Source of the DNA: Candidatus Fermentibacterota bacterium | Lineage (GTDB): Bacteria; Fermentibacterota; Fermentibacteria; Fermentibacterales; JCC-6 | Reading direction: 5' to 3' | Assembly: GCA_014728175.1 (NCBI GenBank) | Contig: WJMA01000012.1 | Location: 1-48,372, forward strand | Length of the DNA: 48,372 nt | Shown: positions 1,196 through 42,172 of the stretch, in pieces | Position numbering within the stretch: position 1 is the first letter of the stretch | Layout of the letters: each line of letters starts with the position of its first letter | Made by a program: the position numbers and the translations under genes | Notes under the pieces: generated by a model | Seen by the model: only the letters and a program-made list of their open reading frames with translations | Database searches by the model: none | Told to the model about the DNA's origin: nothing

Positions 1196-2647
1196 CTATT
1201 GCGTTGACTTGACCCGTTTGACCTCCCAAGAGGCGTAGGCCGCCAGTAGGCCCATCGATATCCAGAAACCGGCGTTGGCCTGGGGCCAGTGCATCTGGTT
1301 TCCCAGAGTTTGATGGCCGAAGAATCCGAGCAGGCCCGCAGCCAGACCAATGGGCACCATTCCGCCACCTCTACGTAGTGCCTTTACCAGGGCAATCCCG
1401 GCAGCCACGAGGATCAACATGATAGCTGTAAGGGAGATTAATCCACCTTTGACCGCCTGGTTGAGGAACATGCTGTTTAGGCCACCGAAGTTCTTTATAC
1501 GAGCCTCGCTTACCGTGTGGCGGCCCTCCCAGAAGCTGTACAGCTTCGTCCTTCCCCAGTGGAACGGTAAGGCACCCCAACCCAAGCCGGACACCGGAGA
1601 GGAAAGGAACTGCCTTGCAAAACCTCGATAGGTAATGAATCTGTGCAAGATGGTCGGTTCCATTAGGGTAGATTTGGGGTTGGTGAACAAAGACATCTGC
1701 CTTTGAAAGACATTGGCGGTTGAAACAAGAACGACCACGAAGAGCATAAAGATAACCACGGGAATCCACAGCTTCTTCCTGAATCGCCAGAAAAGGGTTA
1801 TCACGCAGGCGATGGTAAGGCATATCAGTCCTCCGCGAGAGAACGTATATAGAGTGCTGAGAACACCCAGCAACACTGCGGCCAGGGCCAGCAGCTTCCA
1901 CTTGATCTTTCTTTCCTTGAAGAACAGGGCGATGGCGATTGGCACACCAAGTTCCAGAAAGGCCGCCAGCACGTTGTGGTGCCTGAAGAGTCCGCTGACC
2001 CGTATCCGAAAGACGTATCCAGTGCTCATGCCTATCCTGGAAACACCGGTCGTTTGAAAGTACTGGAAAACACCCGAGAAGGCCACGATCAAGATGGCAA
2101 CCAGATACACCCGTAGGAAGCGTACCAGCTTCTCTTTGGTATTGCAGAGAGTGGGGATGATCAGAATCATTGGAAGGAAGAGATAGATGCTGCTCGCCTC
2201 ACGAATGGCATTCAGCTGGTGCTGCCCATGATAATGGATCGAAACGACAACGCTTACACATTGAACGAGCACCGCCAGAAGACAAAGTTTTACGGGTAAG
2301 GACGGGATAAAGATCGGCCGATTCCATAACGCTCGATCAGCCAGGTAGAACATGAAGTAGGAAAACATGGCTAGGGTAGCCAGGGACGGATGAAACGGCT
2401 CAAGGTCCACCCATATCGAACCCAAGCCGAAAAAGATGAAAATCAGCGGGTACAACCAGGATTCGGGTCTTGGAAAAGCCAGAAAAAACGACGTGAGAAA
2501 GAACAACCCGAAGAACCCGATCCTCACCCGCATTGGAAACGCGGAGCGGAACCAGAGCATGAAAAGAATAAAAAGGGTGGCCAGCAGCATCCCCCACAAG
2601 ACGTACTTGAGTCTTTGGGCACCGTAGGTGATCTTTTGATGAGCCAT
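1196..2647 (-). CDS. O-antigen ligase / Wzy-type polymerase family membrane protein
   Basis: A 483-residue polytopic membrane protein with about a dozen hydrophobic segments. The long periplasmic loop between the central and last segments holds the region typical of Wzy_C/O-antigen ligase proteins (around SRGGL and the GLGWG segment). The family joins or polymerises undecaprenyl-linked glycans in the periplasm. The frame stays open to 2824, but the first 59 codons of that version are Cys/Arg-rich and unlike a membrane-protein N-terminus, so I place the start at 2647 (MAHQKITYG), which leads directly into the first membrane segment. It sits between two sulfotransferase genes in a small polysaccharide cluster. 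Ligase versus polymerase cannot be told from sequence alone. Confidence 0.8.
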   Translation of the reverse strand: MAHQKITYGAQRLKYVLWGMLLATLFILFMLWFRSAFPMRVRIGFFGLFFLTSFFLAFPRPESWLYPLIFIFFGLGSIWVDLEPFHPSLATLAMFSYFMFYLADRALWNRPIFIPSLPVKLCLLAVLVQCVSVVVSIHYHGQHQLNAIREASSIYLFLPMILIIPTLCNTKEKLVRFLRVYLVAILIVAFSGVFQYFQTTGVSRIGMSTGYVFRIRVSGLFRHHNVLAAFLELGVPIAIALFFKERKIKWKLLALAAVLLGVLSTLYTFSRGGLICLTIACVITLFWRFRKKLWIPVVIFMLFVVVLVSTANVFQRQMSLFTNPKSTLMEPTILHRFITYRGFARQFLSSPVSGLGWGALPFHWGRTKLYSFWEGRHTVSEARIKNFGGLNSMFLNQAVKGGLISLTAIMLILVAAGIALVKALRRGGGMVPIGLAAGLLGFFGHQTLGNQMHWPQANAGFWISMGLLAAYASWEVKRVKSTQ

Positions 2648-19147: not shown

Positions 19148-19244
19148 GGGAGCGGAAGGGGACTGGTGTCTCTCCCGGACTTCAAATCCGGCGTAGGGTG
19201 CTAGAACCATCCTGGGTGGGTTCGATTCCCACACGTTCCCGCCA
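19148..19244 (+). tRNA. selC: tRNA-Sec (anticodon TCA)
   Basis: 97 nt with all bacterial selenocysteine tRNA features: 8-nt acceptor strand GGGAGCGG against ACGTTCCC (one G-T pair and a mismatch at the eighth pair), a long 6-bp D-stem (GGGGAC/GTCTCT) with a 4-nt loop, anticodon stem CCGGA/TCCGG with loop CTTCAAA (anticodon TCA), a long variable arm (AGGGTG/CATCCT stem), T-arm GTGGG-TTCGATT-CCCAC, discriminator G and encoded CCA. It suppresses UGA with SelB at SECIS-bearing codons. The selD gene 480 bp downstream needs it for its own translation. selA and selB are not in the window. Confidence 0.95.
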
Positions 19245-35170: not shown

Positions 35171-36296
35171 CGACGGGCAGGAAGACTATTCCCCTCTCCT
35201 CCAGATGCGACATGACGAACTCGAAGGGCTCGTCGTGCATACCGACGTCCTCGGGGGGGAACACCCCGGTCTCGGTCCACAGGTCTTTCAGGAGAAGATG
35301 GACCCCCGCGGTGCACGTGTAGCCCGTGGTCCGGGCCATGGAGCTTATTCCGTTTTCGTGGTCGTAGGCATCGGTCATGATCCAGGAGGCCTCCCACAAG
35401 CTCCCATCGTCCTCCGATCCCATGGCCTCCACCAGCATCACTGTCAGGTCCGGCTCCTCAGGTCCCATGTGCCAGGTGTCGACCAGGAGCTTCGATGTCA
35501 GATCTCTGGGAACGACCTCCACCCCGTTCAGCTTCACCGGTTCATCCGAGAAGAAACCCGAGCTCAGAAGGGTCTCCACCAGCTCGCGGTGGCCCGGGTA
35601 GCGCAGGGTCTTCTCCACCATCGAAGGTACCCGGTCGGAATACCTGAGCATGGTCCTGAGCCCGTCGGTCACGAATCCCTCCAGGGTCCCCAGACCGGGG
35701 AAGTCCACCAGCTCGGGAATGCTGAGGGCATCCATGGTGATCACGACTCCGTTTTCCACGATGCGCGCCGGCCGGGTGTACTCCTCGATAACGTCGGCGG
35801 GCGAAAACGGGGCGGCGTACTGCCAGGGAAGAACCCTGGCTGCGGGCAGCCCTCCCACGTAGCAGGCGAACCTCTCCAGGTCCCCGTAGGCCTTTAGCAG
35901 CATGCCCAGAATCAGGTTGCTGCAGCCGGGCGCTATCCCGAAATCGACCAGGCATCGACAGCCGTTGCTCTCCGCGGTCTCGGCCAGGGTCATGGCGTCC
36001 TCGGGGAAGAAGGATATGTCCACCACGTCCCTCCCGGCCCGAAGCAGCGCTTCCACGGTGCCGTAACCCATGCTTCCGGGAACCGCGCACGCGGCCACGT
36101 CGCAACCCTCGGTCAACCCGGCGATGCGGTTAGAGTCGCGTAGGTCGGCCTCAATCGTTTCTATTCGGGGAACATCGGCCAGATTCTGCAGCCGCTCCGT
36201 AGAGACATCCAACGCTCGCACCTGTACTCCGCTCTCGGCCAGGTCCAGGGCGATCGCCCCGCCCACCCTGCCTGCTCCCAGAAGAGCTACGGTCAT
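35166..36296 (-). CDS. saccharopine dehydrogenase family oxidoreductase
   Basis: 376 residues. N-terminal Rossmann motif LLGAGRVGGAIA (residues 4-15), then the family's DLRD segment, CDVAACAVPGS, GRDVVDISFF and the conserved VDFGIAPGCSNL, with the C-terminal catalytic-like domain typical of saccharopine dehydrogenase/lysine 6-dehydrogenase-like proteins (about 120-370). NAD(P)-dependent oxidation of a secondary amine, possibly in lysine or polyamine metabolism. The start is ATG 36296, where the Rossmann fold begins and an SD GGAGGGG lies upstream on the minus strand; the frame is open to 36350. The substrate is not predictable. Confidence 0.82.
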   Translation of the reverse strand: MTVALLGAGRVGGAIALDLAESGVQVRALDVSTERLQNLADVPRIETIEADLRDSNRIAGLTEGCDVAACAVPGSMGYGTVEALLRAGRDVVDISFFPEDAMTLAETAESNGCRCLVDFGIAPGCSNLILGMLLKAYGDLERFACYVGGLPAARVLPWQYAAPFSPADVIEEYTRPARIVENGVVITMDALSIPELVDFPGLGTLEGFVTDGLRTMLRYSDRVPSMVEKTLRYPGHRELVETLLSSGFFSDEPVKLNGVEVVPRDLTSKLLVDTWHMGPEEPDLTVMLVEAMGSEDDGSLWEASWIMTDAYDHENGISSMARTTGYTCTAGVHLLLKDLWTETGVFPPEDVGMHDEPFEFVMSHLEERGIVFLPVG

Positions 36297-36390
36297 AGCA
36301 AACCCCTCCATCCGTCGCGGCCCGTACCGCCGCCAGCTTTTTCCAACCATGTCCCAAACGGGCCTAAAGGACCAGGGCAGCCTTTGGCGA

Positions 36391-36813
36391 CTAGACGGTC
36401 CGCAGCCACTCCTCGATCTTGCTCTTGACCACGTCCCGAACCCTGCGGAACTCCTTCAGCCTTTCCTCCTTGGAGCCCTGGAAGGCGGCCGGATCGTCTA
36501 TGTCCCAGTGCATCCGCTGGCCCACCCCCGGGAAAGTCGTGGGGCAGTGCTTGTCCGCGTTGGCGCAGACGGTGATAAGGTATCCGAAGTGTACCTTCCC
36601 CATGTACTTGGTCACCGATTTGGAGTACTGGCCGTTCAGATCCAGCCCCACCTCGGACATCGCCTTCCTGGTAAGGGGATGAATCTCTACGGGCTCCAGG
36701 CCCGCGCTGAAGGCGTCGAACCGGTCTCCGGCCATATGTCGCAGGAATGCCTCGGCCATCTGGCTGCGAGCGGCGTTGCCCGTGCAGAGGAAAAGAACGC
36801 GAGTTTTGGTCAA
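36391..36813 (-). CDS. arsC: thioredoxin-coupled arsenate reductase (LMW-PTP fold)
   Basis: 140 residues. P-loop CTGNAARS (Cys10, Arg16, Ser17) with downstream Cys83 (TVCANADKHC) and Cys90, the three-cysteine relay of the S. aureus pI258-type ArsC that reduces arsenate to arsenite with thioredoxin. The general-acid Asp is in DIDDPAAFQG. Start TTG 36813 (TTGACC) with GGGGAGA upstream. An inverted repeat that could be an operator lies 48-72 bp upstream. No ArsR, ArsB or Acr3 gene is nearby. The saccharopine dehydrogenase gene is 94 bp downstream. Confidence 0.85.
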   Translation of the reverse strand: MTKTRVLFLCTGNAARSQMAEAFLRHMAGDRFDAFSAGLEPVEIHPLTRKAMSEVGLDLNGQYSKSVTKYMGKVHFGYLITVCANADKHCPTTFPGVGQRMHWDIDDPAAFQGSKEERLKEFRRVRDVVKSKIEEWLRTV

Positions 36814-36852
36814 GGTATTCTCCCCCCAAGGCTAGACATCGAGCAACAAGGA

Positions 36853-36885
36853 TTGCACACTGCTGTTAACGGAATATTAACAGCA
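36853..36885. promoter_or_regulatory. inverted-repeat operator and promoter between arsC and arfB
   Basis: The 9-bp arms TGCTGTTAA (36861-36869) and TTAACAGCA (36877-36885) are perfect, with a 7-bp spacer. They overlap a plus-strand promoter: TTGCAC (36853-36858), 16-bp spacer, TATTAA (36875-36880). This suits a dimeric repressor acting on arfB and perhaps on arsC, 48 bp away in the other direction. Confidence 0.55.
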
Positions 36886-36897
36886 TCGGGAGGTGGC

Positions 36898-37329
36898 ATG
36901 AGCGGTAGGATCGAGGTGACACCGGAGGTCTGGATAAACGAAACCGAGATCGAGCTCAGCTTCGTGGGCTCCTCCGGACCAGGTGGGCAGAAGGTCAACA
37001 GAACGTCGTCCGCGGTACAGCTGTTCTTCGACATCTCCTCGTCCAGCCTGCCCGAAGAGGTCAAGAACAGGCTGCGGAAGCAGTTCCCGGGCCGGATAAG
37101 CAAGGACGACGTGTTGATGATCGAGTCGTCGGAGCACCGAAGCCAGCACCGAAACCGGGAAACGGCGGTCTCCCGGCTGGTGAAGATCCTGAGAAAGGCC
37201 TGCCGGAAACCAAAAAGGAGAAAGAGGACCAAGCCTCCCCGGCGGGCCAGGGAGAAGAGGCTGGCCGAGAAGAAGAAGCGGTCGCAGAAGAAGAAGCTCC
37301 GCCAAGACCCCGACCCGGGACGCTTTTAA
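36898..37329 (+). CDS. arfB: alternative ribosome-rescue factor / peptidyl-tRNA hydrolase ArfB
   Basis: 143 residues, the usual ArfB/YaeJ/ICT1 size. The GGQ motif that hydrolyses peptidyl-tRNA is SGPGGQKVNRTSS (Gln31). A long, very basic C-terminal tail (RKPKRRKRTKPPRRAREKR, then KKKRSQKKKLRQ) matches the tail that ArfB inserts into the empty mRNA channel of stalled ribosomes. Start ATG 36898, SD GGGAGG 5 nt upstream. The frame is open far upstream (to 36070), but that part is antisense to arsC and not coding. Only the inverted-repeat region separates it from the divergent arsC. Confidence 0.9.
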   Translation: MSGRIEVTPEVWINETEIELSFVGSSGPGGQKVNRTSSAVQLFFDISSSSLPEEVKNRLRKQFPGRISKDDVLMIESSEHRSQHRNRETAVSRLVKILRKACRKPKRRKRTKPPRRAREKRLAEKKKRSQKKKLRQDPDPGRF

Positions 37330-39341: not shown

Positions 39342-39370
39342 TTGACAGTCAGCGTAAAGTAGCCTAAGGT
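39342..39370 (+). promoter_or_regulatory. sigma70-type promoter of the arg leader - argGH
   Basis: Perfect -35 TTGACA (39342-39347), 17-bp spacer, -10 TAAGGT (39365-39370). The predicted start near 39377 places the leader ORF 20 nt into the mRNA, where its SD GGGAGG (39385-39390) fits. Confidence 0.65.
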
Positions 39371-39397
39371 TGAGCCTCGACGCCGGGAGGTGAAACC

Positions 39398-39520
39398 ATG
39401 AACGAAAAACTCAACCCGAAAAGCTGGATACCCCATCCGCTACACGTGGCAGGCGGTTACGACCCCCGTACCACCTCCAGAGCCTACCGCCAGGGCCTTT
39501 CCACCAGGCGTCGAAGGTAA
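39398..39520 (+). CDS. 40-residue arginine-rich leader peptide upstream of argG
   Basis: ATG 39398 has a strong SD (GGGAGG, about 7 nt upstream) and a promoter just before it. The ORF encodes 40 residues that start MNEKLNPKSWIPHPLHVAGG and end YRQGLSTRRRR. Seven of the last 17 residues are Arg, the final four from AGG-CGT-CGA-AGG (39506-39517), directly followed by TAA 39518-39520. Its place between the promoter and argG, and the run of Arg codons, are the marks of a leader peptide sensing charged tRNA-Arg. The 11 nt immediately before the Arg run can pair with the argG ribosome-binding site (see the regulatory feature). No homologue is known to me. A short structural protein is the alternative. 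Confidence 0.7.
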   Translation: MNEKLNPKSWIPHPLHVAGGYDPRTTSRAYRQGLSTRRRR

Positions 39521-39624
39521 AGCCCTACCTTTAGAGCTCTCTACCAGCGTAACTCAGCTCAATAGGCAATAGCACGGGGCACGGTCCGATTCCGGTCGGA
39601 GTGCGCCCGTACGGGTGGAAAGGC
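39495..39624 (+). promoter_or_regulatory. anti-Shine-Dalgarno attenuator controlling argG translation
   Basis: GCCTTTCCACC (39495-39505, leader codons 33-36) is the exact reverse complement of GGTGGAAAGGC (39614-39624), which contains the argG SD (GGAAAGG, 39617-39623). Pairing would hide the argG SD. A ribosome paused on the Arg codons at 39506-39517 would cover 39495-39505 and free it. A smaller hairpin, AAGGTA (39514-39519) with TACCTT (39526-39531), overlaps the last Arg codons and stop. Bases 39532-39613 also contain TCCGA/TCGGA and GCAC/GTGC pairings. No U-run terminator is seen, so control would be translational. Confidence 0.6.
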
Positions 39625-39629
39625 AAGTA

Positions 39630-40871
39630 ATGTCAGTATACGAACCCAAGAATACCGATCCCCAAAAGGTCCTGCTGCTGTACAGCGGCGGCCTGGATAC
39701 GTCCTGCATGGTCAAGTGGATCCAGCAGCAGTACGACGCCGAGGTGACAACCCTTACCCTGTACCTGGGCCAGGACGGAGCGACCGAGGCCAGGAAGAAG
39801 GCGCTCGATCTGGGCGCTTCCCGGGCCTACGTGCTGGACTGCCTGGACGAGTTCGCAGACTACTACCTGTCCAAGACCATAAAGGCCAACGGGCTCTACC
39901 AGCACGGCTATCCATTGAGCACGGCGCTGGCCAGGCCCCTGGTAGCCGAGCGGGCGGTGGAGATTGCCCGTATGGAGGAGGCCGACGCCATAGCACACGG
40001 CTGCACGGGCAAGGGCAACGATCAGGTGCGCTTCGAGGTATCGATCAAGTCCTTGGCCCCGGACATCTCCGTCATGGCCCCGGTCCGTCGGTGGAACATG
40101 GACCGGGAGACCGAGAAGGCTTTCGCCCGGGAGAACGGAATACCCGTCGGGCCCTCGTCGGAGTACTCCGTAGACGCCAACCTGTGGGGACGGAGCATAG
40201 AATGCGGCCCCCTGGAGGATCCTTACCGTGAGCCACCCTCGGAGATATTCCGTTACGTGGTTCCTCCCGAGATGGCTCCGGATGCTCCGGAGTACACGGA
40301 GATCGGCTTCGAGTCCGGTCTTCCGGTCACCCTGAACGGCGAGGAGATGAGGCTGGCCAGGCTGGTGGACACCCTGAACGGTCTGGCCGGGCACCACGGG
40401 GTGGGGATAATCGATCATGTCGAGGACCGGGTGGTAGGTCTCAAGTCCCGCGAGGTCTACGAGTGCCCGGCGGCGGTTACCCTACTCTCGGCTCACGCCG
40501 ACCTGGAACGCTTCTGCAGCACCATTCACCAGAACGAGGTCAAAGCCTTCGCCGACCGCAAGTGGTCGGAGCTGGTCTACAAGGGTCTGTGGCACGATCC
40601 GCTGCGGGTCGACCTGGACGCCCTGATGGACAGCATGAACCAGGGGGTGACCGGAAAGGTGAGAGTGAAACTGTTCAAGGGGCGGGCGATGGTGGTGGGC
40701 AGAGTCTCTGAGAACGCGGTGTACGACCACGATCTGGCCACCTACGGTCGGGAGGATGTCTTCGACCAGACGGCCTCGGAGGGTTTCATAACCATCTGGG
40801 GCCTGCAGACTAGTGTCGCCTGCAGAACCAAACGGGCCAAAACGCCCCAACCGGTGGGGGATGAAGTATGA
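39630..40871 (+). CDS. argG: argininosuccinate synthase
   Basis: 413 residues; joins citrulline and aspartate with ATP in arginine biosynthesis. The PP-loop motif is YSGGLDTS (residues 18-25). Family landmarks include GCTGKGNDQVRFE, REWN-type segment VRRWNMDRETE, EYSVDANLWGRS, and LAGHHGVGIIDHVEDR. ATG 39630 is chosen over GTG 39615 because GGAAAGG lies 6 nt upstream and the family begins just after this point. That SD is the target of the leader complement. The stop overlaps argH (ATGA), so any control of argG initiation would pass to argH. Confidence 0.97.
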   Translation: MSVYEPKNTDPQKVLLLYSGGLDTSCMVKWIQQQYDAEVTTLTLYLGQDGATEARKKALDLGASRAYVLDCLDEFADYYLSKTIKANGLYQHGYPLSTALARPLVAERAVEIARMEEADAIAHGCTGKGNDQVRFEVSIKSLAPDISVMAPVRRWNMDRETEKAFARENGIPVGPSSEYSVDANLWGRSIECGPLEDPYREPPSEIFRYVVPPEMAPDAPEYTEIGFESGLPVTLNGEEMRLARLVDTLNGLAGHHGVGIIDHVEDRVVGLKSREVYECPAAVTLLSAHADLERFCSTIHQNEVKAFADRKWSELVYKGLWHDPLRVDLDALMDSMNQGVTGKVRVKLFKGRAMVVGRVSENAVYDHDLATYGREDVFDQTASEGFITIWGLQTSVACRTKRAKTPQPVGDEV

Positions 40872-42172
40872 ACCTCTGGCAAACCGAAGAAGAGCAGACC
40901 GATCCTCTGGCGCAGCGGTACTGTACGGAGGAAGATCTTCACTGCGACCGGGCGCTGGTCAAGTACGACATCCTGGGATCCATGGCCCATGCCCGCATGC
41001 TAATGGAAACGGGCATCCTGGATGGATCGGAGTGGTCGATGCTTCATGAGGCGCTCTTCGATATTCTGGTGGGCGAGGTCGTGCTGGGCCCGGAAGACGA
41101 GGACGTACACACCAGGATAGAGAACCTGCTTACGGACCGACTGGGAGAGCTGGGCGGAAAGCTTCACACCGGCCGGTCCCGCAACGACCAGGTTCTGCTG
41201 GATACCCGGCTGCTCTGCAGGGAGAAACTAGTGGAAGCGGCCCTCTCGTGCGTCCGATTAGCTGCATCCCTGGCCGCGTTCTCCGGGAAACAAGGCGATG
41301 CTCCGATGCCCGGCTACACCCACAGCAGGAAGGCCATGCCCACCACCGTAGGCACTTGGGCGGCGGCGCACGCGGAGTCGCTCGTCGACCACCTGAGATG
41401 CATCGACTCAACCTACGAGCTGGTGGGATGCAACCCGCTGGGGGCGGCCGCCGGGTACGGAGTCCCCATGCACCTGGACACCAGACGGACGGCGGAGCTT
41501 CTGGGCTTCGAACGTACGCCGGTAAGCCCTTTGTACACGATAAACAGCAGGGGCATCCTGGAGCACCAGCTTCTGTCGACCCTGGCCGGCCTCATGCTCA
41601 GCCTGTCCAGAATGGCCGACGATCTGGTTCTTTTCTCCCGGGAGGAGCTGGGCTTCTTCCGGATTCCCGAGAGCTTCACCACGGGCAGCAGCATAATGCC
41701 CCAGAAGCGAAACCCGGACGTTTTGGAGTTGGTAAGGGCCCGTGCGGCCTCCGTGGTCTGCCAGGCCACGCAAACCGCGATGATCGTTAAGGGCCTCACC
41801 TCAGGGTACCACCGGGATCTGCAACAGACCAAGGGACCGTTGATATCCGGCCTGGAAAGCACCTGCATGACCCTGTCGGTTCTTCGTCCTCTGGTACAGG
41901 GCCTGGAAGTCAATCGTAAGGCCCTGGGGAAGGCCATGAGCCCGGAGCTCTACGCCACGGCGGAGGTGTACGCGCTGGTGGAGGGGGGTACTCCGTTCAG
42001 AAGCGCCTACAGAAAGGTGAAAACCACAAAGGCATTGCCGGAAGGAATCGGAGCTCATCACGGGCCTCCGGATATCGATCTGCAGCCCCTCTACTCCTCG
42101 CTCAAACACTACCGGAGATGCTGGGTCAACCGTAGGGCACGGCTGCGCAGGGCACTGGAGAACCTTCTGTGA
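40868..42172 (+). CDS. argH: argininosuccinate lyase
   Basis: 434 residues, slightly short for the family (about 455-470). Splits argininosuccinate into arginine and fumarate. Signature GSSIMPQKRNPDVLEL carries the catalytic Ser loop; TGRSRNDQV, MPGYTHSRKAMPTT (catalytic His in the TH pair) and GCNPLGAAAGYG are the other conserved regions. ATG 40868 overlaps the argG stop by 4 bp. The C-terminus (RRCWVNRRARLRRALENLL) replaces the usual longer tail. It is the last gene of the operon. Confidence 0.96.
   Translation: MNLWQTEEEQTDPLAQRYCTEEDLHCDRALVKYDILGSMAHARMLMETGILDGSEWSMLHEALFDILVGEVVLGPEDEDVHTRIENLLTDRLGELGGKLHTGRSRNDQVLLDTRLLCREKLVEAALSCVRLAASLAAFSGKQGDAPMPGYTHSRKAMPTTVGTWAAAHAESLVDHLRCIDSTYELVGCNPLGAAAGYGVPMHLDTRRTAELLGFERTPVSPLYTINSRGILEHQLLSTLAGLMLSLSRMADDLVLFSREELGFFRIPESFTTGSSIMPQKRNPDVLELVRARAASVVCQATQTAMIVKGLTSGYHRDLQQTKGPLISGLESTCMTLSVLRPLVQGLEVNRKALGKAMSPELYATAEVYALVEGGTPFRSAYRKVKTTKALPEGIGAHHGPPDIDLQPLYSSLKHYRRCWVNRRARLRRALENLL

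Follow-up and report, generated by a model that had tools for sequence, protein, structure and literature searches.

Control of arginine biosynthesis in bacteria is usually ascribed to the ArgR repressor or to T-boxes. Several described leader systems resemble the locus considered here. The nearest proven case is orf34-speF of Salmonella, in which the leader ORF orf34 (speFL) pairs with the ribosome binding site (RBS) of speF, as proved by compensatory mutants, and in which two consecutive internal Arg codons set the arginine response through ribosome pausing (PMC6386406). The actinobacterial LEU element contains an ORF with a run of Leu codons, and its base stem pairs the region of the run with the Shine-Dalgarno sequence (SD) of leuA, no terminator being present; when the Leu codons were mutated, regulation did not change in the way expected of attenuation (PMC1262725). 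According to the account of Canestrari 2020 given in PMC9031893, a polycysteine short ORF, CysR, controls downstream translation in mycobacteria without a classical terminator. In S. aureus, finally, the leader ORF rbfL acts at the level of translation initiation, with pausing at its Arg codons as the arginine sensor (PMC13009471).

In an uncultured bacterium, a short leader ORF lies directly ahead of the arginine biosynthesis genes argG and argH. The most likely reading, to which we give a probability of roughly 0.6 and which concerns a single genome, is that this argGH leader is a ribosome-mediated translational attenuator. It shares with orf34-speF an upstream ORF that pairs with a downstream RBS and consecutive Arg codons. 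However, orf34 controls an ornithine decarboxylase with the participation of Rho and RNase G, its pairing spans about 400 nt and its peptide is of the DUF2618 type, whereas the argG leader has four terminal Arg codons, precedes a biosynthetic operon and yielded no homology, Pfam detecting no DUF2618 relationship in its peptide. The LEU element likewise combines a run of end-product codons with pairing to the SD of a biosynthetic gene and no terminator, but its amino acid is leucine and its pseudoknot is conserved across genera, whereas the argG leader concerns arginine and one genome; the behavior of its codon mutants, contrary to attenuation, is a warning for the reading proposed here. CysR, as described in that account, differs in its amino acid, cysteine, and in its leaderless ORF. 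The sign of rbfL is opposite, given that pausing represses by covering an overlapping RBS, whereas at argG it would be activating and would act over a distance of about 100 nt. The classical his attenuator also has a leader with codons of its own pathway, but its output is an intrinsic terminator, which is absent at argG. The preliminary description of the locus knew of no example with this layout in arginine biosynthesis; orf34-speF, the LEU element and CysR come close to the layout, while its use in arginine biosynthesis was not found in the literature searched. No described attenuator of arginine biosynthesis was found there either, subscription papers being thinly covered.

Positions refer to the window, i.e., the whole stretch of 48,372 nucleotides that was analyzed. 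The features of the locus are as follows.

39342 to 39370, plus strand: candidate sigma-70 promoter TTGACA-17-TAAGGT, read from sequence (-35 TTGACA at 39342-39347, 17-nt spacer, -10 TAAGGT at 39365-39370).
39386 to 39393, plus strand: leader SD GGAGGTGA, with an 8-nt anti-SD match and a spacing of 7.
39398 to 39520, plus strand: leader ORF MNEKLNPKSWIPHPLHVAGGYDPRTTSRAYRQGLSTRRRR, 40 codons, from ATG 39398 to TAA 39518-39520.
39482 to 39491, plus strand: upstream decoy, predicted to pair with the argG SD once the main anti-SD is masked.
39495 to 39505, plus strand: anti-SD GCCTTTCCACC, 11 nt, leader codons 33-36, exact reverse complement of GGTGGAAAGGC.
39506 to 39517, plus strand: four Arg codons AGG CGT CGA AGG (codons 37-40), the last four before the leader TAA.
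39507 to 39538, plus strand: predicted hairpin over the Arg run and the leader stop, opened by a ribosome located there.
39522 to 39529, plus strand: downstream decoy GCCCTACC, predicted to pair with the argG SD once hairpin and anti-SD are masked.
39536 to 39545, plus strand: third decoy, in the CTCTCTACC region.
39574 to 39610, plus strand: GC-rich hairpin within the closed structure, with no T-run after it.
39614 to 39624, plus strand: argG SD region GGTGGAAAGGC, target of the anti-SD.
39630 to 40871, plus strand: argG, argininosuccinate synthase (TIGR00032, 474 bits, cutoff 268).
40868 to 42172, plus strand: argH, argininosuccinate lyase (TIGR00838, 289 bits, cutoff 279.5).

The promoter, the SD-led ORF of 40 codons, its terminal AGG CGT CGA AGG and the ATGA overlap of the argH start (ATG 40868) with the argG stop are all present as first described, and a scan detected no intrinsic terminator before argG, in agreement with the U-run terminator having been reported absent. 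The promoter is plausible though weak at -10: this hexamer has 3/6 matches and the total falls below the threshold of the promoter scanner. Similar sites (TTGACA-16/17-TAnnnT) also precede the hisG leader and argF of the same genome. The leader peptide has no Pfam or NCBIfam match and no homologue in the 41 relatives searched; its best matches in the order were rejected because they contained stops or aligned to unrelated frames. No curated Rfam covariance model matched the leader at E up to 5, a result that holds for that collection rather than for a dedicated model of the LEU element pseudoknot. Elsewhere in the window are a selenocysteine tRNA gene at 19148-19240 (Rfam tRNA-Sec, 74 bits) and, at 36070-37329, an ORF that carries an RF-1 domain at its C-terminus (residues 286-409). 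The extended N-terminal region of this ORF is antisense to ORFs of the other strand, and its true start is probably further downstream.

The locus thus presents an SD-led short ORF with a run of end-product codons 5' of a biosynthetic operon. In a 0.9-Mb sample of the genome, 3 of the 102 SD-led short ORFs found upstream of genes carry a run of four; the argG leader, with its 8-nt SD, is the only one of these three whose run matches the downstream pathway, and it ranks among the best SD-led short ORFs surveyed. Extending the survey to 805 weaker candidates brought in one more pathway-matched leader, at hisG. AGG is the commonest Arg codon of the genome and the Arg codons of the leader need several tRNAs, so that the run is no rare-codon trap, a point against the attenuator reading.

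The hisG leader belongs to a broader pattern. hisG is present in 4 of 42 genomes of the order, and a His-run leader precedes it in all four. In the genome under study, an SD-led leader with WHHHRHVH is followed by an intrinsic terminator and then by hisG. The other three leaders contain LGRHHHHAARR, MHHHHVV and NSNHHHHGS in tandem, and AHHHVRT, respectively; inspection by eye places a GC hairpin and a T-rich tail after each.

L178, 1324 to 1483 (genome G000, contig C64): classical his attenuator with leader MPRTGMARPVLWHHHRHVHPSAGAGHTL, terminator at 1438-1457, T-run, then hisG.
L260, 1217 to 1500 (genome G028): two tandem His-run leader ORFs upstream of hisG, each with a GC hairpin and a T-run of its own.
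L259 and L261, about 1240 to 1500: hisG of two other families of the order, preceded by His-run leader ORFs and, after these, GC hairpins with T-rich tails.

The tandem arrangement at L260 is an apparent double attenuator. Since His-run leaders stand before every hisG of the order, the lineage uses ribosome-mediated attenuation, a habit that makes an arginine leader more likely from the outset. leuA was not found. The view of the argG ORF as an arginine-sensing leader peptide is well supported, both by its anatomy and by the His-leader attenuators of the lineage.

The perfect complementarity claimed between 39495-39505 and the argG SD region is exact, and the anti-SD directly abuts the Arg run, both lying inside one ribosome footprint. 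In the free RNA, each base of 39614-39624 is predicted to pair with its partner in 39495-39505 with a probability of about 0.99, so that the default fold pairs the argG SD with leader sequence and the anticipated occlusion is borne out in prediction. The fold of 39485-39660 has z = -3.0, while that of the full leader has z of only -1.05; the hairpins were listed from an alignment fold of the same sequence entered twice, which conveys structure and carries no covariation content. Opening the argG SD would cost 7.6 kcal/mol in the free RNA and 7.4-8.4 kcal/mol when a ribosome occupies the first part of the leader. Placing the ribosome on codons 33-37 or on codon 40 lowers the cost to 2.6-3.0 kcal/mol, values up to 3.3 kcal/mol being also obtained for codons 33-37, and masking 39495-39505 alone gives 2.8 kcal/mol. 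At codons 38 and 39 the cost is 5.8 and 4.1 kcal/mol, respectively, if the upstream RNA is free, and about 3.2 kcal/mol if following ribosomes cover it. The median gene of the genome requires 5.5 kcal/mol; at about 3 kcal/mol the stalled state is thus more open, and at 7.6 kcal/mol the free state more closed, than the median. Costs of at least 7.6 kcal/mol occur in 23% of sampled genes and in 15 of 120 recoded leaders (12.5%), which counts against the attenuator reading.

Release is predicted to be partial, as the three weaker C-rich decoys take over part of the SD pairing in the stalled state. Moreover, a terminating ribosome at the stop codon gives 2.9-3.6 kcal/mol, leaving the SD as open as does a ribosome at the Arg codons. 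Folding thus favors the proposal that a ribosome on the Arg run relieves the SD, the predicted cost falling from 7.6 to about 3 kcal/mol, but the relief is incomplete: some decoy pairing continues, and a ribosome at the stop codon has much the same effect. Discrimination must then rest on dwell time, and the modelled switch would be graded, acting through that dwell time.

Under the attenuator reading, the strong SD of the leader ORF would drive its translation. When Arg-tRNA is ample, the ribosome would clear the leader, 39495-39505 would pair with the argG SD and argG would be poorly translated. With scarce Arg-tRNA, the ribosome would wait at codons 37-40, cover 39495-39505 and melt the Arg-run hairpin, leaving the argG SD weakly held and free for initiation; argH would follow argG by ATGA coupling. 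According to the folding model, a ribosome stalled for lack of arginine would thus probably open the clamped argG SD. We infer transcription from 39342, translation of the leader and pausing in it, the direction and magnitude of the response in vivo, and the coupling of argH.

The alternative that survives best, although we consider it unlikely, is plain translational coupling, in which translation of the leader unfolds the argG SD whether arginine is scarce or plentiful, the Arg codons being there by coincidence. In its favor, the predicted opening of the SD is no smaller for a ribosome over codons 33-36 or at the stop codon than for one at the Arg codons; basic C-termini arise by chance, and leader genes can raise translation downstream (PMC4833913). 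However, the gap of 109 nt exceeds the short reinitiation distances proposed in the same work, an Arg run abutting an anti-SD right before an arginine gene is improbable as a coincidence, and the lineage has His leaders that are specific to their amino acid.

The rarity of the complement bears on a second, slightly less probable alternative, namely that the ORF and the complement ahead of argG are fortuitous features of an ordinary 5' UTR and that argGH is under ArgR or constitutive. Across 2.24 Mb of the genome (the survey covered about 2.2 of 2.6 Mb, most of contigs C65 and C63 being left out), a complement of 11 nt to the SD region, within 210 nt upstream, is found for only 2 of 1807 genes. 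The second 11-nt complement and one of 10 nt (at L205 and L198) were rejected because both fall inside upstream coding sequence. When only genes with 200 nt or more of free upstream sequence are considered (244 in the 0.9-Mb sample), argG alone exceeds 9 nt, and dinucleotide shuffles of its upstream region reach 11 nt in 31 of 60,000 cases. Synonymous recoding of the leader peptide with the codon usage of the genome gives 11 nt or more in 2.3% of cases; codon choice alone is thus modest evidence, the peptide explaining part of the match. This permissive peptide composition favors chance, as do the picking of the feature after the fact, the presence of argR and the restriction of the layout to a single genome. 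Against it, an Arg run and an SD complement that touch each other occur together only at argG in the surveyed genome, where a strong SD, a pathway-matched run and a rare complement coincide, and argG has no ARG box.

Beyond this genome, argG was found in 1 of 41 other genomes of the order, where it is 35% identical, lies directly behind another gene and has no leader upstream. At the DNA level, a search for conservation in 60 relatives returned short chance matches only. Querying the genome contigs with argG gave no confirmed locus, and searching contigs with an alignment of eight argG sequences gave 80, whose identity does not exceed 55%. At about 90 argG loci elsewhere, neither a leader with both an SD and an Arg run nor a complement to the SD longer than 8 nt was present; runs of R upstream of other argG loci were rejected as lying in other frames or in coding regions. 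Among the loci compared, the layout of Arg run and anti-SD therefore occurs in one genome only. The genome may owe its argGH pair to transfer.

The genome encodes argF, argG, argH and argR. No argB was found above the cut-off in this assembly, which is 96% complete; given that argF, argG and argH are present, arginine may come from imported or otherwise supplied ornithine. argR adjoins a carA-like gene (a candidate name, from sequence), and an ARG-box-like site overlaps its promoter.

L095, about 1701 to 1760, minus strand: ARG-box-like site TGAATATATACTCA and a second AT-rich half-palindrome, upstream of argR.

This site suggests probable autoregulation of argR together with the neighboring carA-like gene. 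At argG and argF, the best candidate ARG boxes are no better than those of shuffled sequences, so there is no clear sign that ArgR controls argGH. No leader ORF was found at argF, a counterpoint to an argGH attenuator, and none was found at argS.

Least probable is transcriptional attenuation, in which stalling at the Arg codons would govern premature termination, Rho-dependent or atypical, in 39521-39629 rather than access to the SD: the His leaders of the lineage precede GC hairpins with T-rich tails, 39574-39610 forms a strong GC-rich hairpin and Rho also takes part in orf34-speF (PMC6386406), but argG, unlike hisG, has no T-run or terminator-like site, and the complement falls exactly on the SD, which a terminator design would not need. 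The lack of a U-tract or terminator, together with a complement centred on the SD, favors a translational output through SD sequestration for the argGH attenuator.

We put at about even odds the proposition that this locus is a dedicated and purely translational attenuator of arginine biosynthesis, with four Arg codons beside an anti-SD inside the leader ORF, and that the lineage pairs His leaders of the terminator type with an SD-sequestering Arg leader. If true, arginine and a translational output mode would be added to the class of leader-peptide attenuators, and the His and Arg leaders of one little-studied lineage would make two output modes comparable.
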